Positions 4,545 to 36,190 of a stretch of DNA of 39,199 nt are shown here, piece after piece. Origin of the DNA: a virus. The stretch spans positions 1 through 39,199 of IMG/VR virus record IMGVR_UViG_3300009285_001119; one strand, written 5' to 3'. Both the position numbers and the translations under genes were made by a program. How positions within the stretch are numbered: the first letter of the stretch is position 1; each line of letters opens with the position of its first letter. The notes below the pieces were generated by a model. The model saw only the letters and a list, made by a program, of their open reading frames with translations. It was not told the origin of the DNA and searched no databases.

Positions 4545-5240
4545 ATGGCAGATAAAAAGATTTCGGAATTAAATGCGTTGACAGCGGTTGCGGATGTGGA
4601 TTTATGCGTAGTGGTTGATGACCCAACAGGAAGTGCGGAAACCAAAAAGATTACGCGGGCCAATTTGTTGGGATCTGAAACAATAACAATAGCGGCAGGG
4701 AAAGCTTTAAAAACGGATACCATAAGCGAAACAACAGGAGCGGCAGGGGTAACAGTGGATGGCGGACTCCTGAAAGATGGAGCTTTTGAGGGTGTAGTTG
4801 AGGGTAAGTGTATTGATGTTGCGCAATTTTCAAATAATACAATCATAGATAATGACACTAATTCTTTGGTGTTTGATTTTGTGCCCTCTAAGATTGTTTT
4901 ATCTTTTTCCGGTGGAGGAAAATTTACAGGAGTACCAAATCAGGGGATTACGACTGGACATACTATAATTACAATAACAGGGACAGACACGATTACTTCT
5001 GTTTGTAATGCTACTGCTTATTATCAATTTGATTCAGCATGGGTTCATACTGCTGCTTTGGGGGATACTGTTAATGTTATATATTTGTATGTAGGAAGAA
5101 TGATAGCTACTGGGTCGGCTACGATATTAGGAACAGCTACTTGGACAACCGCAACCAAAACATTGCTGATTACATATCAAGAAACTTTTACAGATACATC
5201 TTTTACAAACTTAGAGGTTTTAGCGACCGCTTACAAATAA
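4545..5240 (+). CDS. Tail fibre-like protein, 231 aa
   Basis: The N-terminus MADKKISELNALTAV followed by DLCVVVDDPTGSAETKKIT is a well-known phage tail-fibre/tailspike leader that anchors the fibre to the virion. The remainder is Thr/Gly-rich and beta-strand-rich, probably the distal receptor-facing part. AAGGAG lies just before the ATG. It is short for a fibre, so it may be a small appendage or need a partner. Confidence 0.7.
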   Translation: MADKKISELNALTAVADVDLCVVVDDPTGSAETKKITRANLLGSETITIAAGKALKTDTISETTGAAGVTVDGGLLKDGAFEGVVEGKCIDVAQFSNNTIIDNDTNSLVFDFVPSKIVLSFSGGGKFTGVPNQGITTGHTIITITGTDTITSVCNATAYYQFDSAWVHTAALGDTVNVIYLYVGRMIATGSATILGTATWTTATKTLLITYQETFTDTSFTNLEVLATAYK

Positions 5241-5247
5241 GGAATAT

Positions 5248-5655
5248 ATGAAAAGAATATTGATTGTTTTACTTTTAGTTTTAAGTTTAGCAGGAATGGG
5301 TGGGGCGGAATCGTACCTTTATTTAGAGATGGATAAGTCAATCAATGGCGCTTTTGAATATCGGCTACCAAAGATAGAGTGGAATTTCTACCGGTCGCTT
5401 GGTAAATTCTTTGGCCAGCCGTGTGTTTATCTTTCAGAATTTGAGGGAGCATTAGTGTATACAGCGCCGAGGGCTTCCATATTCTCATTGAACCATCACA
5501 GCCTTGAGGCAAATTGGAATTTAGGCTTAGAAGTTCAGCCGTTCTGGGGAACGATTTCAATTGGAGGAAGACAATTTCTTGATGGCAATAGCGATGGCAT
5601 ACCGGCGAACCTTGAAATGTTCAATCTTTTGAGGTTAGGAATATCATTCCCATGA
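5248..5655 (+). CDS. Secreted hypothetical protein, 135 aa
   Basis: The N-terminus is a clear Sec signal peptide: MKR, a run of Ile/Leu/Val, then AGMGGAE as a likely cleavage region near residue 21. The mature part is aromatic and beta-rich (alternating strands such as YLYLEM, WNLGLEV). It could be an exported or membrane-associated phage protein acting on the host envelope near lysis genes. No family is recognised. Confidence 0.6.
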   Translation: MKRILIVLLLVLSLAGMGGAESYLYLEMDKSINGAFEYRLPKIEWNFYRSLGKFFGQPCVYLSEFEGALVYTAPRASIFSLNHHSLEANWNLGLEVQPFWGTISIGGRQFLDGNSDGIPANLEMFNLLRLGISFP

Positions 5656-5673
5656 GCCATGCACTAAAAGACA

Positions 5674-5775
5674 ATGGAAGATATTTGGGGGTGGATCCCA
5701 TTATCAGCAATTCAACGGTTGGAATTTGATAAAAGATTTTCAAAAATGATGGCATTAAAGGAAAAGAAAAAATGA
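5674..5775 (+). CDS. Small peptide, 33 aa
   Basis: MEDIWGWIPLSAIQRLEFDKRF... ends in a Lys-rich tail. Its TGA overlaps the ATG of the next gene (ATGA), the coupling seen throughout this genome, which is why it is called. Amphipathic; function unknown. A competing 25-codon frame at 5652-5729 overlaps it and looks less convincing. Confidence 0.4.
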   Translation: MEDIWGWIPLSAIQRLEFDKRFSKMMALKEKKK

Positions 5776-5966
5776 CAACTGAAACAATAGAATATAACGG
5801 GATTAAGCCAGGCTGTGGATTTGGCGCAATCAATCGCGAGAAGATTAGGGAAAGCGAACGGAGGATAGCGGATATTGAATCTAAAATATGGACGATAATA
5901 TTGTTATTGATAGGTAATTTCGTTGGAATTGTAGCCAATTTGTTAATAACAATGGGGAAACAGTGA
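5772..5966 (+). CDS. Holin-like membrane peptide, 64 aa
   Basis: A charged amphipathic helix (residues about 20-38, EKIRESERRIADIESK) is followed by one transmembrane segment (about 39-60, WTIILLLIGNFVGIVANLLI). This layout resembles the XhlA/haemolysin-type lysis accessory proteins of Gram-positive phages. It lies directly before the amidase gene, supporting a lysis role. The start is coupled to the preceding small gene by ATGA. Confidence 0.55.
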   Translation: MTTETIEYNGIKPGCGFGAINREKIRESERRIADIESKIWTIILLLIGNFVGIVANLLITMGKQ

Positions 5967-5988
5967 TATGTATAAAATATATATAGGA

Positions 5989-6006
5989 TAGGTATAATTA
6001 TACCTA
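5989..6006. promoter_or_regulatory. 18-bp perfect palindrome upstream of endolysin
   Basis: TAGGTATAATTATACCTA is a perfect palindrome and contains TATAAT on both strands. It ends 15 bases before the amidase ATG. No good -35 box is seen 17 bases upstream, so it may be an operator or an activator-dependent late promoter. The core TATAATTATAC also occurs at the promoter at 8735. Confidence 0.45.
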
Positions 6007-6021
6007 AAGGAAAATTTTAAC

Positions 6022-6492
6022 ATGAAAAGAGGGCTGACAAAAAAAATTATAATCCATCACAGCGCCAGCACCCGGGATTTTACCATAATTGAGATGATCC
6101 GGGGTTGGCACAAAGAAAAAGGTTTTTTAGATGCCAACGGAAAAGCTGGGTATCACTGGATCATAACAGGCGATGGGCACGCCCACGCCGAAAGGAAAGA
6201 GGACGAATGGGGGGCGGCGGTTAAGAACGCAAACCATGACAGCATTTCAATTTGCTTGACAGGGAACTTTAACCTTGAAGCCCCGAATGATAAGCAGATA
6301 AATACATTGATTGAACTATTGATAGTATTGGTAAAGAAATATAAATTAAAATACTGGAACATTTATGGACATCGGGATATAAAATGGCTATTTATTTTTT
6401 TCACGACACAAACCGCCTGCCCGGGGAATATCCTGTATGCCAGACTACCAGAAATCAGGAAAAGAGTCGCACTCGCAACGGAGTTAAAATGA
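6022..6492 (+). CDS. Endolysin: N-acetylmuramoyl-L-alanine amidase, 156 aa
   Basis: An Amidase_2/PGRP-type enzyme that cuts the bond between MurNAc and L-Ala of peptidoglycan for host lysis. Zinc-ligand motifs are visible: IIIHHSAS (His12), YGHRD (His117) and TACPG (Cys133), with the GYHWII segment at residues 43-48. The full length is one catalytic domain with no obvious cell-wall-binding domain and no signal peptide, so a holin would be needed. The site AAAGGAAA precedes the ATG, and the stop overlaps the next start. Confidence 0.9.
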   Translation: MKRGLTKKIIIHHSASTRDFTIIEMIRGWHKEKGFLDANGKAGYHWIITGDGHAHAERKEDEWGAAVKNANHDSISICLTGNFNLEAPNDKQINTLIELLIVLVKKYKLKYWNIYGHRDIKWLFIFFTTQTACPGNILYARLPEIRKRVALATELK

Positions 6493-8768: not shown

Positions 8769-9212
8769 ATGGGAAAAATAAAAAACATATACAAATGGGC
8801 AAAAAAAAACGGAGTAAAAATAACAAATGAGGGAATAAAGGGAAACAAGAACCCCAACTGGAGGGGGGGGGTGTCGGAATATCCCAACCAAAGGGAAATG
8901 ATGAGAATTAAAATATTAAAAATAAAAGAAAATAATGGGAAATGTGAAGCGTGCAGTGAACATGCGGACTACATACACCATATTGACAAAAGCAAAAGCA
9001 ACCATACCCCGGAAAATCTTATGCTGATCTGCCGATCTTGCCATGCCATATTACACAGGGGCGACCGCTCCGAAATAAGGACAACGAAGTGGAAAAGGTA
9101 TTTTGGAAAAAGCATAAATGAGATAGCGGGGTTGCTAAAAATAACCCCAAGCAGGGTCAGGTATGAGATATTGACGAATGGAGCAGAAGCCCTTAAAAAT
9201 AAATTATCTTGA
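8769..9212 (+). CDS. HNH homing-type endonuclease, 147 aa
   Basis: N-terminal GNKNPNWRGG is a NUMOD3-type DNA-binding motif (residues 25-34). The HNH nuclease follows: Cys59-x2-Cys62, HHIDK at 70-74, Asn83, then CRSCH at 88-92 (zinc cysteines and the third catalytic residue). The C-terminus (INEIAGLLKITPSRVRYEI) is a helix-turn-helix. Such freestanding phage HNH enzymes usually nick or cut intronless or endonuclease-less relatives. It has its own promoter. A run of nine G at 8873-8881 lies in the NUMOD3 region. Confidence 0.88.
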   Translation: MGKIKNIYKWAKKNGVKITNEGIKGNKNPNWRGGVSEYPNQREMMRIKILKIKENNGKCEACSEHADYIHHIDKSKSNHTPENLMLICRSCHAILHRGDRSEIRTTKWKRYFGKSINEIAGLLKITPSRVRYEILTNGAEALKNKLS

Positions 9213-14833: not shown

Positions 14834-15402
14834 CAAATATATCTCGCTTGCAAGACATATCGCCGGGAGCTAATGTAAAAGACCCCCCACTAAATGATTA
14901 TATTGATATGCTGGCGGAACTAAAAAATCAAATCTCAAACCGATTGTTAGATATTGGCAAGTGGTTATCCTATCTATACGAATCGGAAAAATACAGGGAA
15001 CAATTTGAAACCTTTGAAGAATTTTTAGGCACTCCCGAATTATCATTCAGCCGGGCGGTGGCATATAAGAGCATGGCAGTTTATAAATTTACAGAAAAAT
15101 ATAAGGCGGACATAACAGGAATTGACGGCGACAAGGTATACCGGATAATTAAGCCGATAGAAAAATCAGGCAATCTTGAGGAATGGCTGGAAAAGGCGCG
15201 CGTCCTCTCCCGAAGCGATCTTGCAACCGAGGTAAGGCAATTCTGTGGATTAGCCGAGCACGATTACGCTAAGCACTCAAGCGAGCATGTCAAAGAATGG
15301 CTATATGAATTCTGCCCCAAAAAAGGAATCAACCCAGACGAATTAGAACTAGAAGAACTACTCGGGCAATTTTTGAAATGGTATAAAAGGAATTTAACAT
15401 GA
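14830..15402 (+). CDS. Hypothetical protein, 190 aa (DUF3102-like region)
   Basis: The start is chosen at the ATG overlapping the previous stop (ATGA). Helical throughout: LLDIGKWLSYLYESEKYREQ, FEEFLGTPELSFSRAVAYKSM resembles phage DNA-associated proteins with a helix-turn-helix, and ARVLSRSDLATEVRQFCG follows. Possibly a DNA-binding or partition-like protein. The stop is coupled to the glycosyltransferase (ATGA). Confidence 0.5.
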   Translation: MTNISRLQDISPGANVKDPPLNDYIDMLAELKNQISNRLLDIGKWLSYLYESEKYREQFETFEEFLGTPELSFSRAVAYKSMAVYKFTEKYKADITGIDGDKVYRIIKPIEKSGNLEEWLEKARVLSRSDLATEVRQFCGLAEHDYAKHSSEHVKEWLYEFCPKKGINPDELELEELLGQFLKWYKRNLT

Positions 15403-16073
15403 AAAACAAAACCGGGCTCTACCTCATCAACTGTAATTATTCGCAATATCTGCCGTGGGCGCTCCGATCCATTGAAGCGCTCACAGTTCAGCCGGACGTT
15501 CTGGTCTTTATTGATGATGCTTCCACGGATAACAGCGTTGAGATTATCCATAAACATTTTGGCCATATAAGGTTTGAAGAATTCATAATCAACCCTGAAA
15601 ACGCTGGCGCGGTTTGGACTATGAACCATATTGTTAAAATTTTAGGAGAAGAACATAGTTGCAATTATGTGTTTGGACTATCAGCGGACGACCTCTTGCA
15701 CCCGGACTACATCAAAAAAACAAAAGAAGCACTTAACAATGCGGACGAAGCCACCGGATGGATTTATACCCATGTCCGGCGAATTGGAGATGAAAACTCT
15801 ATTGACATACACCCAGAATGGAATAAGGAGCTCCACCTGCGAACGCCATTTTGCCACGGATCAAGCCTAATAAAATATGAAGCATGGAAATCGGTTGATG
15901 GATTGCCTGATATTGACAAGGAAGAAGACTGGCAATTATTCAAAAACCTTTCGGCACTGGGTTGGAAAGGAAGGCTCCTGCCAGAGGCATTGTTATACTG
16001 GCGCAAACATCGTGACCATGCCCGAACAGTATCAAAAAATCAAGGCTGGGAATTAAGAGGAGGGAAAAAATGA
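15399..16073 (+). CDS. Family 2 glycosyltransferase, 224 aa
   Basis: GT-A fold: an N-terminal NCNYSQYLPWALRSIEAL segment, VFIDDASTDNSVEII (about 36-50), LSADDLLHPDY (acidic metal-binding motif at residues 96-98), and EEDWQLFKNL near residue 175, the C-terminal acidic catalytic region. No membrane segment. It transfers a sugar from a nucleotide donor; acceptor unknown (host surface glycan, virion protein or DNA). It forms a pair with the acyltransferase gene downstream (ATGA overlap). Confidence 0.82.
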   Translation: MKNKTGLYLINCNYSQYLPWALRSIEALTVQPDVLVFIDDASTDNSVEIIHKHFGHIRFEEFIINPENAGAVWTMNHIVKILGEEHSCNYVFGLSADDLLHPDYIKKTKEALNNADEATGWIYTHVRRIGDENSIDIHPEWNKELHLRTPFCHGSSLIKYEAWKSVDGLPDIDKEEDWQLFKNLSALGWKGRLLPEALLYWRKHRDHARTVSKNQGWELRGGKK

Positions 16074-16762
16074 AACAGTATAAATGGGAAATAGTAAAAC
16101 GCGGACACGATAATATTCTTGAAAAGAAAACCATCGGCTATGATCTTGAAGATTTGATTTTCCGTAACTTACTTGAAATAGGAGAGGGAACGATCATTGA
16201 TGAAGGGGTAATCCTTTGCCACCCGCTGGCAAACGGAAATATCGCAGGACGATTAAAAATAGGTAAAAATTGTAAAATCCGCTCCGGTACGGTATTTTAC
16301 TGCGACGTTGAAATCGGAGACAACTGTACCTTCGGGCATAACGCCGTGGTCAGAGAATGCTGCCGAATAGGCAATAATACAAGCATTGGCACTTTGGTTT
16401 CAGTGGAAAACAATACCATCATTGGAAACAATGTAAGCGTTGAGACAGCTGCACACATCACCGGACACGCCACCATTGAGGACTATGTTTTTATCGGAGG
16501 GTTTGTTGGCTCTACTAACGACCTGACGATGAAATACCGCAGGGAGGGACACGGAAAAGGGCTAAAAGGGGCGACCATTAAGTACGGAGCAAGAATCGGA
16601 AGCGGGGCAATCCTTATGCCGGGGATTATTATTGGAGAATATTCAATCATAAACGCAGGGGAAGTTGTGAGAAAAGATGCTCCTGCCCGGCATTTAATGT
16701 TTACAGAAAAAAACGAAGTAATATATAAGCCCCTGACAAATATTGAGGAAATAAAAAAATAA
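16070..16762 (+). CDS. Left-handed beta-helix acyltransferase, 230 aa
   Basis: Hexapeptide repeats fill most of the protein (IGKNCKI, IGDNCTF, IGNNTSI, IGNNVSV, IEDYVFIGGF, IGSGAIL, IGEYSII), the mark of sugar O- or N-acetyltransferases of the LbetaH superfamily; His133 (AAHITGHAT region) is a candidate catalytic histidine. Probably acetylates the sugar made or added by the adjacent glycosyltransferase. Confidence 0.85.
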   Translation: MKQYKWEIVKRGHDNILEKKTIGYDLEDLIFRNLLEIGEGTIIDEGVILCHPLANGNIAGRLKIGKNCKIRSGTVFYCDVEIGDNCTFGHNAVVRECCRIGNNTSIGTLVSVENNTIIGNNVSVETAAHITGHATIEDYVFIGGFVGSTNDLTMKYRREGHGKGLKGATIKYGARIGSGAILMPGIIIGEYSIINAGEVVRKDAPARHLMFTEKNEVIYKPLTNIEEIKK

Positions 16763-19026: not shown

Positions 19027-19080
19027 TACGTTTTCTTTTTGGCTGCGGAACGATAAGAGATTAAAGAGGAGGGAAAATCA

Positions 19081-19667
19081 TGAAAATAGAAATTAGAAAT
19101 CGCTGGACTTCCGAAATTATTATTGAGGGGGATTATGATAGTGTAAAGGATTGTTTGGAAAAAAAGCGCGGTAGCAACTTGCGCGGTATCAACTTGAGCG
19201 ATAGCAACTTGCGCGGTATCAACTTGAGTTATATCAACTTGCGCGGTAGCGACTTGAGCAATAGCAACTTGAGCGATAGCAACTTGCGCGGTAGCGACTT
19301 GAGCGGTAGCGACTTGAGCAATAGCAACTTGCGCGGTAGCGACTTGCGCGGTAGCGACTTGAGCGGTAGCGACTTGAGCGGTAGCGACTTGAGCGGTAGC
19401 GACTTGAGCGGTAGCGACTTGCGCGGTAGCGACTTGAGCGGTAGCGACTTGAGCAATAGCAACTTGAGCGATAGCAACTTGCGCGGTAGCGACTTGAGCG
19501 ATAGCAACTTGAGCGGTAGCGACTTGAGCAATAGCAACTTGCGCGGTAGCAACTTGCGCGGTAGCGACTTGAGCGGTAGCGACTTGAGCAATAGCAAAAT
19601 TTTGGTTACTCAAAAGGATTTATTATTGAAAGCCTTAAGAATTGAAATAGTGGAGGTAAAAAAATGA
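19081..19667 (+). CDS. Pentapeptide-repeat protein, 195 aa
   Basis: After a 30-residue N-terminus (IRNRWTSEIIIEGDYDSVKD), about 28 tandem five-residue repeats of the type (S/N/D)-L-(S/R)-(G/D/N)-S build a right-handed quadrilateral beta-helix. Some members (MfpA, Qnr) mimic DNA and protect gyrase; others are structural, so the role here is open. GAGGAGGG precedes the ATG. The DNA repeats are very uniform, implying recent expansion. Confidence 0.85.
19166..19596 (+). repeat. 15-bp tandem DNA repeats in the pentapeptide gene
   Basis: The unit GGTAGCGACTTGAGC varies mainly between AGCGGT, CGCGGT, AGCAAT and AGCGAT at the junctions; about 28 units. Because the unit length is a multiple of three, long false frames open on both strands. 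Confidence 0.85.
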
Positions 19668-24971: not shown

Positions 24972-27377
24972 ATGCATAGCGATATAGCAACAAAAATAAA
25001 ACATCAGAATAAAAGAATAAAAAAATATCAACAGCTTGAACCTGAAATGTCAGCCGACATAGCCTACTGGAAGTCGCCATATTATGAAAACAGTTATTAC
25101 GAACCTTACAACCCTGACGACCTACTCCGCAAATTCGGCGGGAATAAAGCTCTTGATAAGTATCAAAAAATGAAACAGGACGACGCGGTAAAAAGCGCAT
25201 TATTCGTTAAGAAATCGGCGGTAGTATCATCAGGCTGGGTAATTGAACCAGCAACGCAAGAAGAGAACGATAAGACTATCGCCGATGACCTACAAGAAAA
25301 TATTGAATCATACTATTCCGGCAATTTTGAATCCGGGATCTTGCAAATACTATCCGCGCTTGAATATGGATTCTCAGTAAACGAGAAAATATTCGGGGTT
25401 GAAAATAACCGAGTAGTCTTAAAAGAACTAAAAGCAAAACCCCCGCATAGCTTTGAATTTCATACCGACCCATTCGGCAATCTTAAACCAGATGGATTTA
25501 AGCAGTGGACAAATAACGGCGGACTAATTAGTCTGCCGTTAAATAAATTTGTTTACTATCCATACAATAAAGAATTCGGGAACTGGTACGGCGATTCTGA
25601 TTTACGAGCCGCCTATCGCTCCTGGTTTTCAAAAGATATTCTGATTAAAGCATGGAATATTTACCTTGAACGGTGCGGAGTGCCTTTGGTAATCGGGAAA
25701 TACCTGGAAAGCGACTCCAGCGAAGAGCGATCAACCATGCAGAACATAGTTGACAATCTCTCGTTCAAAACTTCCGCACTAATCCCCAAAGGAGCGGACA
25801 TAGAATTCAGGGAAAGCGTGCGCCAATCAACTTCCGACTTCAAAAATGCTATTGATTCGCACAATGCTATGATTATGCGATCAATTCTCGTTCCGCGACA
25901 TCTAGGATTTGACGAAACCGCTGGAGGATCTTATGCTCTTGGCAAAGTCAACTTTGACGTATTCGCATGGGTAGTCGGAAGGATCAGAAACGAATTACAG
26001 GAAATAATCAACGAGCAAATTATAAGACCGCTAACGATTTATAATTTTCCCAATGCTAAAAACTTCCCGAAATTCAAATTTAACCCGCTAACCGAAGAGG
26101 ACAAAGACCTAAAATCAAAAACCATTATTGAGGGAATCAGAGCAGGGGCAATCAGCCTTGACCAGGAATCTGAAAACTATCTGCGCGGACTGCTGGGTAT
26201 GCCGGAAGCTGTAGAACAGGAACCGGTAAAGACAAAAACCGAGCCAGAACCAAAAGAATACAAATTCAAACGGCAACTAAACAAGTATGAAAAAAAAGTA
26301 GATTTTGCACTTATTCAAAAGACCTTAACTACCGATACAGATGAGGCAATTCTGGAACTCAAAGATCAATTGCGTAAAATCAGAGACGATTTTACAACTC
26401 AAATTGTAAGAAAAAAAATCGCCGAGGATAAAAACATAGCGGCAGTAAGCGGGATTGAATTCAAATATATCCGGGAGCTATCGCAGAAGATTGAAGCGAT
26501 CCTGCGCTCGGCTTATGACAACGGCAAGAAATCCGCAAAGGACACTGCTAAAAAAGCGGACTTCGTTTCCAAAATCGGACTAACAAAGGGGAAAGCCATG
26601 CTCTGGATAAAAGAACAAAGCAAAATATTGACCGGGAATATATCTGAAGCGCTTCAAAACAAATCAAAGCAAATTATTCTTGACGGATTAAGCCGCGGAG
26701 CTACCACGAACGACATCGTCAATCTTGTTGACAATGCCTTTGAACCCTTTGTAGCAGAAGAAGGCTGGGAAGGATCAGTAAAAGATGGAATGAAAATGTA
26801 CACAGAAGTGAATACCACTATCGCGCAATCATTTTCCAACGGGTTAAGGGAATACAATCTAGGGCTTGAATCAGAGGGCTGGATTGAGGGGTACGAATAT
26901 AGCGCGATCCTTGACGAAGCTACCACCGAGGGTTGCGAAGAACTGGACGGGCAGATTTACGGTGTGAGCAATATTTACTTAAACGAAATCGCTCCGCCGA
27001 GACATTGGAACGCGATTGTAGAGGGGGAAAAAGTACAGACCAGCAATGGAGAAGAAAACATTGAGAAAATTAAGGTTGGGGACATGGTCATAGGACATAC
27101 AGGAAAGATGCGCAGGGTTTATGATGTTATGAGCCAAGCCGCCGATTCGGCAGTTTATGAAATTGAAATGGACAATGGAAATAAATTAAAAATTACAGCA
27201 GAACACCCGGTTTTAACAGGAAAGGGATGGAAGCGTGTGGATATGCTTTCGTGTTCGGATTTGATTGTCGGGGTTGAAGATGTTATAAATAACCCTGTTA
27301 GGGTTCACGAATACGCTATTCTGGTGGACGCGAATAACCTTGAATCCGAGGGAGGACAAATAGATGTCGCGGACTAA
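24972..27377 (+). CDS. Portal-MuF fusion carrying the N-half of a split intein, 801 aa
   Basis: Residues about 25-415 are a portal protein of the Mu gp29 (DUF935) type: the ring at the capsid vertex. Residues about 430-680 are a head-morphogenesis (MuF/gp30) domain, with ILDEATTEGCEELDGQIYGV and APPRHWN, where the family normally continues CRSTLVPV. Instead Asn680 is followed by an intein N-half (residues 681-801): AIVEGEKVQT, IEKIKVGDMVIGHTGKMRRV, LKITAEHPVLTGKGW (blocks A, N2 and B with the TxxH motif). It stops at 27375. The missing C-extein is encoded 0.6 kb downstream. GGAG precedes the ATG. Confidence 0.88.
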   Translation: MHSDIATKIKHQNKRIKKYQQLEPEMSADIAYWKSPYYENSYYEPYNPDDLLRKFGGNKALDKYQKMKQDDAVKSALFVKKSAVVSSGWVIEPATQEENDKTIADDLQENIESYYSGNFESGILQILSALEYGFSVNEKIFGVENNRVVLKELKAKPPHSFEFHTDPFGNLKPDGFKQWTNNGGLISLPLNKFVYYPYNKEFGNWYGDSDLRAAYRSWFSKDILIKAWNIYLERCGVPLVIGKYLESDSSEERSTMQNIVDNLSFKTSALIPKGADIEFRESVRQSTSDFKNAIDSHNAMIMRSILVPRHLGFDETAGGSYALGKVNFDVFAWVVGRIRNELQEIINEQIIRPLTIYNFPNAKNFPKFKFNPLTEEDKDLKSKTIIEGIRAGAISLDQESENYLRGLLGMPEAVEQEPVKTKTEPEPKEYKFKRQLNKYEKKVDFALIQKTLTTDTDEAILELKDQLRKIRDDFTTQIVRKKIAEDKNIAAVSGIEFKYIRELSQKIEAILRSAYDNGKKSAKDTAKKADFVSKIGLTKGKAMLWIKEQSKILTGNISEALQNKSKQIILDGLSRGATTNDIVNLVDNAFEPFVAEEGWEGSVKDGMKMYTEVNTTIAQSFSNGLREYNLGLESEGWIEGYEYSAILDEATTEGCEELDGQIYGVSNIYLNEIAPPRHWNAIVEGEKVQTSNGEENIEKIKVGDMVIGHTGKMRRVYDVMSQAADSAVYEIEMDNGNKLKITAEHPVLTGKGWKRVDMLSCSDLIVGVEDVINNPVRVHEYAILVDANNLESEGGQIDVAD
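27012..27374 (+). other. Intein N-half (121 residues, Ala1)
   Basis: Runs from Ala1 to the stop of the portal-MuF gene. TAEH is the block B motif. The first residue is Ala rather than Cys or Ser, as in class 2 (KlbA-like) inteins, which rely on the +1 Cys; that Cys is present at 28008. The last 55 residues overlap the endonuclease gene on the opposite strand. Confidence 0.82.
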
Positions 27378-27866
27378 ATCTCTTCTTTTCCTGTCTTTAT
27401 TCCAGTGGTTTTTTCCATCAAGCTCCAGTATTAAGTTTAATTCAGGGAAAAAGAAGTCAGCAATATATCGGCCAAAGGGTTTTTGGAATTCAAAGGAAAG
27501 ATTTCTTTTTTTGAGTAAGTTTATGCAGGCAAACTCATGCTTGGTCGGGTTCTTGCCATATGTCTTTGAAAGAGTAGAGACCATTTTTTCTATTATTTTA
27601 GGGTGGTGCATTGGATTATTCTTTTTCATAGAGTCTGAATGTTTAGCATGTGCTAAAGAATTATTTTTATTTAGTCCTTTTGCCCAATGCTTAAAATGGT
27701 TCTTTTTGTTTATCGCCGCATCACGGGCAGTTCTGGTAGGCAAATTACACAACTTGCATTTTCCATATATCCAATCGCGGCTCATTCCGATCTTTTTGGA
27801 AATTTGTAAAACAGAGAAGTTGTCTTTCCAGTGCAGTTTATTAAATATTTCTACAAAGTTTTTCAC
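27213..27866 (-). CDS. EDxHD (Vsr-like) homing endonuclease inside the split intein, 217 aa
   Basis: The only minus-strand gene. The N-terminal part has a helix-turn-helix (VLQISKKIGMSRDWIYGKCK) and NUMOD-like segments. The C-terminal PD-(D/E)XK fold carries the EDxHD set: Glu111 (TKHEF), Asp137 (YIADFFFP), His154 (DGKNHW), Asp163 (RRDLVRD), then LGFKVIRVHQNSVFVN. This family (I-Bth0305I type) is known beside fractured genes and split inteins. GTG start at the very start of the predicted transcript; the 3' end overlaps the N-intein antisense by 165 bases. Confidence 0.85.
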   Translation of the reverse strand: MKNFVEIFNKLHWKDNFSVLQISKKIGMSRDWIYGKCKLCNLPTRTARDAAINKKNHFKHWAKGLNKNNSLAHAKHSDSMKKNNPMHHPKIIEKMVSTLSKTYGKNPTKHEFACINLLKKRNLSFEFQKPFGRYIADFFFPELNLILELDGKNHWNKDRKRRDLVRDIYLSSLGFKVIRVHQNSVFVNPNRVIYNIFNPDNQIRTRKHIHTLPSLSC

Positions 27867-27874
27867 TCTCTACA

Positions 27875-27903
27875 ATTATAATGGGGGTCAGGCGTTATGT
27901 CAA
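27875..27903 (-). promoter_or_regulatory. Consensus promoter of the homing endonuclease
   Basis: On the minus strand: TTGACA (27903-27898), 17-base spacer, TATAAT (27880-27875). Expected transcript start is about 27868, two bases before the GTG, so the mRNA would be nearly leaderless. The -35 box lies across the ATG of the C-intein gene. Confidence 0.78.
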
Positions 27904-28088
27904 TAGGGATAAAAAGCATAAAGAAAGTCAATTATTCAGGCAAGGTTTATAATTTAGCGGTAGAAAAAGATGAAAGTTACATCGTGAATAAGATTGTTGT
28001 GCATAATTGCCGGAGTACTCTCGTCCCGGTATTCAAAGGGGAAGAATGGATTGAATCAGAGACTCTTGATGTAAAGAGGGAATTTTAA
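27897..28088 (+). CDS. Intein C-half joined to the MuF C-extein, 63 aa
   Basis: Residues 1-37 are intein block F and G: KVYNLAVEKDESYIVN and IVVHN ending at the splice Asn37. Residues 38-63 (CRSTLVPVFKGEEWIESETL...) are the missing MuF end, with +1 Cys. Joined after Asn680 of the upstream protein, this restores PPRHWN-CRSTLVPV, the family's normal sequence. GGGGGT precedes the ATG by seven bases, giving separate translation. Confidence 0.86.
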   Translation: MSIGIKSIKKVNYSGKVYNLAVEKDESYIVNKIVVHNCRSTLVPVFKGEEWIESETLDVKREF

Positions 28089-34347: not shown

Positions 34348-34551
34348 ATGGAAATATTAAGCAGGGAAGAATTAGAAGGAATTAAAATGCGGAATAGCAT
34401 AATAAACATGGACAATATTCGGCTGGAGTTATTAAAAGCCGAAGCAAAAACATACCAGAGGGCAATATTAAAAAACCATGGATTAAACGAAGACGGGGAA
34501 TATTCCATAGACGAAAGAGGGGAGATCAAGGAAATTGAACAAAAAGATTAG
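34348..34551 (+). CDS. Small charged protein, 67 aa
   Basis: AAGGAGG before the ATG. Helical, Glu/Lys-rich. Overlaps the start of the glycosyltransferase by 17 bases. Unrecognised. Confidence 0.5.
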   Translation: MEILSREELEGIKMRNSIINMDNIRLELLKAEAKTYQRAILKNHGLNEDGEYSIDERGEIKEIEQKD

Positions 34552-36190
34552 TATAATAATCGTAACACATACCGCAAAAGAGCACGCGCTGAATTGCCTG
34601 AATAATCTTTTTTTATCGGCATACACATATGAAAACAAAGAAGTCTTTGTAGTTGATAATGCCTCTAGCTATTCGGCCGAGCTAAAAGATACTTGCGATA
34701 AATGTGATTATCATTATATTGTAAATGATGAGAACCTTGCTTTTGATTTAGCGAATGAAATAGCGATAAAACAAAGCACGGGGCAATACATTTTACTGCT
34801 TAACGACGACACCTTGCCTATGAAAGATTATTGGCTTGAAAAATATATGAAATTCGCAAACGAACACCCGCAAGCTGGAGTTATCGGGGCGCGCCTTGTT
34901 TATCCTCAAGACGATACTATCCAGCATGCAGGAGTAGCGTTCAATCAGTACCGCCAGCCCTATCACATTTTCAACAAAGGCGATGTAAACGATCCGAGGA
35001 TACTGCAGGCAAGACAATTCCAAGCCGTTACATTCGCCTGTGTCATGATAAAAAAAGAGTGCTACGACCAGATCGGAGGGTTTACCCATCACGAGAAAAC
35101 GCCAGCGTATTACTATGAAGATATTGATTTTTGCTTTAAGGCGCGAAATGCTGGGTGGGAAGTCTGGTACAACCCCGAAGTCATCGTCCACCATTACAGC
35201 GCCCAAAGCTATATGCAGACAATGAAAAACCAGCAGGAAAGTTTTAAGCATTTACCGGAATTCATTGAAAAGTGGTTTATTGAAATAGATCATGACGACT
35301 GGAAAATGCTGGACACGCCGGAACATAATCCGCATATTGCTATCGGAATACCTCTCACAGAGGGATCAGGATGGCGATTTGACCAGCTAATGAACATGAT
35401 TAAAGGATTCCATTACTGGAAAAAGAATATAACCATTATTTTTAGTATAACTGATTCCGGGCCTACATTTATGGAAAAGGTTAGAACATGGGCAAAGACC
35501 GATGGACTGATATTCAAGGAAGTCCTAATGCCTCAAATGGCGGACAACTCTCAAAATAAGATGAGTTCAGTTTATTATAACAGGGAAAAGATAAGAAAAA
35601 TATTTCTTGAAAAAACCGACGCGCAATATTTGTTTTTTATTGATAGCGATGTAGCAATGGAACGAACAACCCTGCGCAAGCTTATAGACATCTGCGAATA
35701 TCAGGGCGCGGACATTTCCGCCGGAACCTATTTCTATAAACTTGAAGACGAACGCGCCCGGCCTATGCTATTCAAAATAGCGGTGGCGACAGATGACTAT
35801 AAAAAAATGACATTCAGAGGGCAAATGAAACTATCCAGCAATTACCCCGAGAAAAATATCGGGCTTGGCAACTTTGTTTTTGCGAGAGAAGCGATGGACG
35901 GAGGAGTTCATCAGGTACACGCTTCCGGGATGGGGTGTACTCTCATAAAAAGAAAATGTCTTGAACAAATACCGTTTAAGGCAAAGCCGACCTATGGAAC
36001 TGAAGACTTGAGCTGGTTTTCGGACGCTTATGATAAAGGATATAAACTTCTGGTTGATACCGGCCTAAAAGTTTATCACCTTGACCCCAACGGATATATT
36101 TATTGCTGGTGGCAACTTCCCACAAGAGAAAGAGACGCTATCTGGGAAGTAACCCCCAACAAAAGAGAGGTTGTTAATTATGGCGTATAG
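34535..36190 (+). CDS. Two-domain family 2 glycosyltransferase, 551 aa
   Basis: TTG start with AAGGA upstream. Domain 1 (residues 1-265): ISIIIVTHTA, FVVDNAS, LLNDDTLP (DD at 91-92), GFTHHEKTPAYYYEDIDFCF, typical GT2 acceptor region. Domain 2 (about 270-540): IAIGIPLTEGSGW and FFIDSDVAMER (DxD at about 369-371), with TEDLSWFSDAYDKG. Two GT-A units in one chain suggest building of a disaccharide or polymer, perhaps on virion proteins. Confidence 0.8.
   Translation: MNKKISIIIVTHTAKEHALNCLNNLFLSAYTYENKEVFVVDNASSYSAELKDTCDKCDYHYIVNDENLAFDLANEIAIKQSTGQYILLLNDDTLPMKDYWLEKYMKFANEHPQAGVIGARLVYPQDDTIQHAGVAFNQYRQPYHIFNKGDVNDPRILQARQFQAVTFACVMIKKECYDQIGGFTHHEKTPAYYYEDIDFCFKARNAGWEVWYNPEVIVHHYSAQSYMQTMKNQQESFKHLPEFIEKWFIEIDHDDWKMLDTPEHNPHIAIGIPLTEGSGWRFDQLMNMIKGFHYWKKNITIIFSITDSGPTFMEKVRTWAKTDGLIFKEVLMPQMADNSQNKMSSVYYNREKIRKIFLEKTDAQYLFFIDSDVAMERTTLRKLIDICEYQGADISAGTYFYKLEDERARPMLFKIAVATDDYKKMTFRGQMKLSSNYPEKNIGLGNFVFAREAMDGGVHQVHASGMGCTLIKRKCLEQIPFKAKPTYGTEDLSWFSDAYDKGYKLLVDTGLKVYHLDPNGYIYCWWQLPTRERDAIWEVTPNKREVVNYGV

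Follow-up and report, generated by a model that had tools for sequence, protein, structure and literature searches.

The virus record IMGVR_UViG_3300009285_001119, analysed whole and called the window below (39,199 bases), carries a phage portal-MuF gene that is fractured within an intein, while the opposite strand encodes a homing endonuclease of the EDxHD type. A sequence-only reading of this DNA had proposed such a split intein, and the anatomy and family matches reported here bear it out. Absent from that reading were the nature of intein residue 1, which is Ala and not Cys or Ser, a bridging open reading frame (ORF) between the intein halves, and a promoter predicted to belong to the endonuclease gene itself. 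We consider it quite probable that the element is a mobile Ala1 split intein with an antisense endonuclease, that portal-MuF is joined by trans-splicing, that the second half is reached by a translational relay, and that the element spreads by homing. The balance also tips slightly towards a new intein architecture, in which an endonuclease gene lies antisense, codon on codon, in an open Ala1 intein frame, a break in that frame gives a natural split class-2-like intein, and the C-terminal half is kept translated by a relay through a third ORF.

A split intein in the portal-MuF gene

The first ORF (24972-27377, +) crosses the extein-intein junction as ...APPRHWN680|A1IVEGEKVQT... and terminates at TAA 27375-27377 (Table 1). 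Its N-extein matched Portal_Mu (2e-59) and, at residues 639-680, positions 65-106 of the 112 in Phage_Mu_F; the Pfam and NCBIfam searches also returned SPP1-gp7/TIGR01641. The N-terminal intein half (Int-N) matched Intein_splicing (4.8e-8), intein_Nterm (2.7e-5) and Hint, and the C-terminal half (Int-C) matched Intein_splicing (2.5e-6) and intein_Cterm TIGR01443 (3e-7). The Int-C gene reads ...IVVHN|CRSTLVPVFKGEEWIESETLDVKREF*. The span 27012-28007 runs exactly from intein residue 1 to the terminal Asn, so the coordinates and junctions proposed earlier were right to the base.

Blocks A, B (TxxH), F and G (HN) and the +1 nucleophile are all present, and these motifs are conserved across the 21 loci described below. 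As in fractured genes, each intein half belongs to a gene of its own and an endonuclease gene lies between the two. It is not strictly between them, because its span also covers the final 165 nt of the Int-N gene (27213-27377). Rfam and tRNA scans gave no matches.

Table 1. Features of the fractured portal-MuF locus, with positions in the window
Feature	Position	Strand	Description
N-extein	24972..27011	+	Portal fused to MuF domain, residues 1-680, C-terminal motif PPRHWN
Int-N	27012..27377	+	121 aa, A1 start, block A and block B (TAEH), shares the N-extein ORF
EDxHD-family (DUF559/Vsr-like) homing endonuclease gene	27213..27866	-	217 aa, GTG start, stop included; PF04480 8.3e-18
Shine-Dalgarno-like GGGAGGA	27350..27356	+	8 nt upstream of bridge ATG 27364
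Bridge ORF	27364..27906	+	180 aa, +1 frame, overlaps Int-N stop and Int-C start, antisense to endonuclease
Sigma-70 promoter, predicted	27875..27903	-	TTGACA-17-TATAAT (12/12), directly before endonuclease start; -35 overlaps first Int-C codons
Int-C	27897..28007	+	Separate gene, ATG 27897, 37 aa, MSIGIKSI...IVVHN
C-extein	28008..28088	+	26 aa from Cys+1 (CRSTLVPV...), then stop

Contiguous and fractured members of the intein family

A search of phage records, viral contigs and genomes yielded 21 loci in which a MuF intein at this site is accompanied by an antisense endonuclease; 13 are contiguous and 8 fractured. The contiguous set (L002, L003, L004, L025, L026, L033, L034, L035, L037, L111, L116, L117 and L122; L003 and L004 are nearly identical) includes three cultured Vibrio phages, 1.265.O, 1.266.O and 1.082.O, whose inteins are annotated merely as hint-domain or coil proteins. 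The fractured set consists of the window, L016, L017, L028, L029, L031, L036 and L110. Endonuclease and Int-N codons are in exact antisense register (phase 0) in 21/21 loci, and Int-C is still in the Int-N frame in 7 of the 8 fractured ones, having slipped by one in L036. The whole portal-MuF, used as a single-sequence query against viral contigs, found no relatives, and a plasmid search returned ordinary DUF559 proteins only.

The sequence-only reading had named an assembly join hiding a contiguous intein as something to look for. The same anatomy recurs on independent contigs, so neither chance nor artefact accounts for it. The window is a single metagenomic virus record and contiguous relatives exist, as might be expected if a sequencing or assembly error had broken a contiguous intein. 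Such an error is nevertheless extremely unlikely: the stops are codon-on-codon complements of ordinary Leu and Ser codons, seven further loci are fractured, and the endonuclease frame, with D163, R166, D167, G174 and R179, is intact through the Int-N stop region, where an indel would break it. We rejected an assembly indel on this unbroken frame through the junction.

In the endonuclease and intein trees, the window pairs with L036 (98/90 and 97/99, respectively) and stands apart from a five-member fractured group (91/89 and 93/98). Three changes between contiguous and fractured states are needed on these trees, whose root position is not known.

Other arrangements were seen beside this family. 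L038 (3217-4098 and 4088-4759) is a fractured Cys1 MuF whose Int-C forms one continuous ORF with an HNH-like endonuclease; this ORF overlaps the Int-N stop. Inteins in a clamp-loader-like gene (L118, 2526-4493 and 3163-3822) and a helicase-like gene (L120, 4190-6175 and 4821-5438) contain an ORF for an EDxHD-like endonuclease within the open intein ORF, but here both share one strand and differ in frame, which is another form of nested dual coding.

Stop codons and the loss of the open sense frame

In phase 0, each TTA, CTA or TCA codon of the endonuclease gene is a stop in the sense frame. We compared the counts of these forbidden codons with those expected from each contig's own codon usage. 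The endonuclease genes of the contiguous loci contain none, whereas 7-12 are expected in the AT-rich ones (probability of zero, 2e-4 down to 2e-7). Most fractured loci are near expectation (9 vs 10.4 in the window, 10 vs 11.3 in L016 and 13 vs 14.8 in L028); L029 (5 vs 12.9) and L031 (7 vs 14.6) are below it. On these counts, the frame is held open by selection in contiguous loci and has been released in fractured loci.

The window linker contains 10 in-frame stops of all three types, mostly TAA. In every pair compared, substitutions were most frequent at endonuclease third positions; the selected protein in this stretch is therefore the endonuclease, with the sense product merely kept stop-free. 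The model of the contiguous L025 intein was confident at residues 1-90 and 299-337 (pLDDT 79-92), which take up a Hint fold and match the Mtu RecA intein (TMt 0.72-0.81), and fell below pLDDT 50 at residues 91-298, the antisense-coded part. With pLDDT 24-44 across most of that part, we rejected the sense-frame linker as a folded domain.

The intein had been described earlier as fractured by the endonuclease gene. The antisense endonuclease is indeed present, but relatives hold it within an unbroken intein ORF, so the fracture most likely arose through stop codons, as a later step after endonuclease insertion.

A bridge ORF and a proposed translational relay

In the window, the bridge ORF meets Int-N and Int-C at the junctions ATGtcgcggacTAA and ATGtcaaTAG. 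In each of the 8 fractured loci, a sense ORF that uses a different frame (1 or 2) is antisense to the endonuclease and runs from at or near the Int-N stop to at or near the Int-C start. It spans the whole gap between Int-N and Int-C in 7 of them, mostly with stop-start overlaps. The junctions are TAGgATG and ATGA in L016, TAATG and ATGttTAA in L017, TGATG and ATGctTAA in L028, GTGA and ATGaaTAA in L029, and ATGgaTAG and ATGtTGA in L031; L036 has ATGgaTAA and a stop 18 nt before the ATG. The bridge of L110 is imperfect at both ends, with its first start 28 nt past the N-half stop and its own stop just before the Int-C ATG.

We estimated the chance of such openness by synonymous shuffling, with the endonuclease protein given and the alternative frame required to be open over the gap. 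The chance was 0.0014 for the window and 0.034, 0.0002, 0.010, <0.0002, 0.039 and 0.016 for the other six bridged loci, on the order of 1e-9 for all seven combined. Among contiguous controls, 0/11 were open over the equivalent of 170 codons and 3/11 over 90 codons. Opposite the Int-C ATG, the five-member clade has the His codon of the endonuclease motif HGKSLR or HDKSLR, a position at which the aligned contiguous loci have other residues. The bridge suggests a termination-reinitiation relay, in which translation would pass from Int-N through the bridge ORF to Int-C.

An alternative sense frame that bridges the gap in the window and its sisters, together with the existence of contiguous relatives, would also suit a contiguous intein masked by recoding, in which readthrough or frameshifting gives one cis-splicing precursor and there is no true split. 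We rejected a recoded stop on the composition of the linker stops, which no code change repairs. Frameshifting would require two precise shifts of opposite sense, and the bridge starts TAATG and TGATG in L017 and L028 hardly overlap the N-half ORF, as in reinitiation and not slippage. Recoding thus appears very unlikely, and we prefer a genuinely split intein with a relay.

The endonuclease and its promoter

The endonuclease profile reached 3r3p (I-Bth0305I) with E 3.3e-5, and Foldseek ranked I-Bth0305I first for the modelled fold, followed by the DUF559 protein 3HRL, with Vsr at rank 4. I-Bth0305I is the representative of the EDxHD family (PMC3943268), and the EDxHD type assigned earlier from the letters alone agrees with this closest fold. 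E111, D137, E148, D150, D167 and R179 are invariant, and H154 and D163 nearly so; the catalytic E, D, D, H, D pattern of EDxHD enzymes is present, as judged from residue conservation within the family. The enzyme of the sister locus L036 (4950-5606, -) has neither H154 nor D163 (EIDSTDKWGK...SKAAIKD) and may be inactive, though the locus is still fractured.

Scores for the promoter before the endonuclease start were 12/12 in L017 and L028, 11/12 in L016, L029 and L031, 10/12 in L036 and 8/12 in L110. The contiguous loci scored near background, except L116 (12/12). Because of the strong minus-strand matches, the endonuclease is most likely an independently transcribed gene, at least in the loci that have them. 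As a clean marker of fracture, promoter strength is weakened by L116 and L110.

Splicing chemistry

Ala1 is found in 19 of the 21 members, the window included; L016 has Ser and L037 Cys. The window Int-C has no Cys, and the C-extein opens with Cys+1. Ala1 and the Cys-free Int-C therefore exclude both class 3 chemistry and the class 1 first step; a class 3 intein, with its WCT triplet and Cys at F:4, was rejected on the lack of Cys in Int-C. In the class 2 route, Cys+1 attacks directly; the class 2 inteins known so far have been described as orthologues of KlbA that carry Ser at G:6 and Asp at F:4 (PMC4031507). Judged by its residues, class 2 chemistry is the remaining known route for the window intein, which combines Ala1 and Cys+1 with no Cys at F:4. 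It is not a KlbA orthologue, and the family has His at G:6, with Asn at F:4 in the window and most rows and Asp in L111 and L116. Because of His at G:6 and mostly Asn at F:4, we use the term class-2-like, not class 2, and splicing activity may be low since these residues deviate from KlbA.

The window intein is hence a candidate natural split class-2-like intein. As of 2020, no split class 2 intein had been reported, although its existence was expected (PMC7891396), and our literature search found no report of one after 2020.

The C-extein of just 26 aa, an Int-C without a strong Shine-Dalgarno site and the loss of His154 and Asp163 from the sister L036 endonuclease could also point to decay, such that the halves no longer splice and MuF works truncated at PPRHWN plus Int-N, or the phage is defective. 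We think decay unlikely. Both halves retain blocks A, B, F and G, Cys+1, HN and the C-extein, neither the bridge ORF nor the promoter is disrupted, third positions vary most in the endonuclease, and the intein-free portal-MuF relatives that we read all keep CRS directly after the site. A working split intein remains our preferred explanation.

Empty sites and mobility

Seventeen portal-MuF relatives, some of them near-duplicates, could be read past the insertion site. Fifteen are intein-free, for example PPNHFS|CRSTIVPIL in L127 (37% identity, query residues 46-680), and all of these retain CRS right after the site. The other two are L143, which re-finds the L034 intein, and L144, which apparently holds a different, Cys1 intein at the same site. 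The earlier proposal that joining Asn680 to Cys+1 restores the family sequence is confirmed by the intein-free relatives, which pass from the PPxHx motif directly into CRS. A normal stop after the motif, which the same reading had suggested looking for, is not seen in them.

In Vibrio breoganii phages, MuF has 366 aa if the site is empty (HPN|CRST, L123-L126) and 707 aa if it is occupied (L003), and the difference is exactly the 341-aa intein. The host site is conserved, and excision restores its sequence exactly (PPNHF[NS]|CRS; HPN|CRST). The closest MuF to that of 1.266.O is from 1.133.O (99.1% over 107 aa), and 1.133.O is empty. The 1.266.O and 1.082.O inteins share 98.4% DNA identity, and many 50-base bins within 400 bases on either side share 60-88%; this contrast between intein and flanks has the look of recent horizontal transfer. 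That near-identical phages differ in whether they carry the intein is consistent with site-specific cleavage of alleles that lack it.

The MuF HPN|C site is an intein hot spot: various other Cys1 inteins occupy it (L007, L018, L023, L065 and L144). Among them are forms with a sense DUF559-type endonuclease and a mini-intein form. A second MuF insertion site (ILDSVT|C...HN|CNYC) was seen in another portal-MuF gene, L051 (3024-6500, +), which holds a contiguous Cys1 intein. Its antisense DUF559-type endonuclease (minus strand, within 5223-6236) is also codon-on-codon, with 0 forbidden codons vs about 7 expected.

Other features of the window

An HNH endonuclease gene at 8769-9209 (+) is possibly a second mobile element of the same phage. 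A pentapeptide-repeat protein gene lies at 19080-19667 (+), with two long overlapping repeat-made ORFs on the opposite strand. The regions 15399-16762 and 34535-36190 (+) hold two glycosyltransferase-2 genes and a hexapeptide-repeat transferase-like gene.

Proposed mechanism

In the mechanism that we propose, the phage portal-MuF gene would host a mobile Ala1 intein at its conserved HxN|CRST site. The enzyme that moves the intein would not be one of the intein's domains but the product of a separate EDxHD endonuclease gene, which lies antisense on the same DNA and has its own promoter. In the ancestral-type arrangement, which is seen in relatives, the sense frame would be open through the antisense gene and give one long cis-splicing precursor; in the window, stop codons would have closed it. 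The sense mRNA would then yield portal-MuF-Int-N, followed by Int-C-CRST... through the bridge relay. Int-N and Int-C would associate into a Hint fold. With Ala as residue 1, the attack on the N-terminal junction would come directly from Cys+1 (class-2-like); Asn would cyclise, and portal-MuF would be ligated. As the sequence-only reading suggested, splicing might be fast and virion assembly might depend on it. The endonuclease would cut intein-free MuF alleles, and repair would copy the element in. The sequences support the anatomy, homology, empty sites, frame selection and fracture by stops; trans-splicing, the splicing class, the relay and cleavage are steps that we infer.

Several points weigh against this explanation. 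We recognised the bridge pattern only post hoc, and a single clade accounts for five of the eight loci, although its members differ in their junctions and use two frames between them. No clear Shine-Dalgarno site precedes the Int-C start in the window, and a strong promoter is also found at a contiguous locus (L116). Few studies deal with Ala1 inteins other than KlbA, and the present family departs from KlbA at G:6 (His in place of Ser) and mostly also at F:4 (Asn in place of the Asp that KlbA needs). The trees do not force a contiguous-to-fractured polarity; since their root is not known, we take this direction from the forbidden-codon pattern.

The origin of split inteins is an open question. 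The related loci show a series of empty site, unbroken intein with antisense endonuclease, and split form, partly in cultured phages, and the probable cause of the break, lost selection against TTA, CTA and TCA, can be read in the sequence. Since some Vibrio breoganii phages have the intein and others lack it, homing and splicing are open to plaque assays. If our explanation is true, an Ala1 natural split intein with a Cys-free Int-C would offer a ligation tool with a new mechanism. A stretch of about 200 codons shared by a selfish gene and its host frame, with a relay ORF replacing that frame once it is broken, would be new genetics if confirmed.

Comparison with known systems

In 2009, Dassa et al. 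reportedly described genes fractured by split inteins and accompanied by free-standing endonuclease genes (gp41-1, gp41-8, NrdJ-1 and IMPDH-1). As these are reported, the window shares with them a host gene cut by a split intein, an endonuclease gene between the halves, a phage-like source and a Vsr-related endonuclease. It differs in that its host is a head-assembly gene and not a DNA-synthesis or repair enzyme, and in that residue 1 is Ala. The contiguous relatives, with the antisense endonuclease in their open intein frame, and the bridge ORF may be further differences. Fractured genes, split inteins and EDxHD enzymes are individually known; their combination here is new to our knowledge, and we know of no fractured MuF or portal intein. 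The earlier suggestion of a new host site holds for the fractured form, but contiguous MuF/portal inteins are already in deposited phage genomes, and portal inteins have been reported in mycobacteriophages (PMC5050341).

The AceL NrdHF split intein (PMC7891396) resembles the window in its Ala1 and its fractured organisation in a phage-like contig, but it belongs to class 3, has an internal Cys and is paired with a GIY-YIG endonuclease, whereas the window Int-C has no Cys. The class 2 intein Mja KlbA likewise has Ala1, Cys+1 and the block B Thr and His (PMC4031507). Unlike it, the window intein is not an orthologue, is not in KlbA, is naturally split, and has His at G:6 and Asn at F:4. I-Bth0305I is the nearest fold to the window endonuclease, and its acidic and basic active-site positions are conserved in the MuF family. 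It is intron-encoded, whereas the MuF enzymes are encoded antisense in an intein and are helical in their N-terminal region (residues 2-39). Vibrio phages 1.265.O, 1.266.O and 1.082.O share with the window the MuF site, the Ala1 intein family and a homologous antisense endonuclease; in contrast to the window, their intein ORF is unbroken (341 aa).

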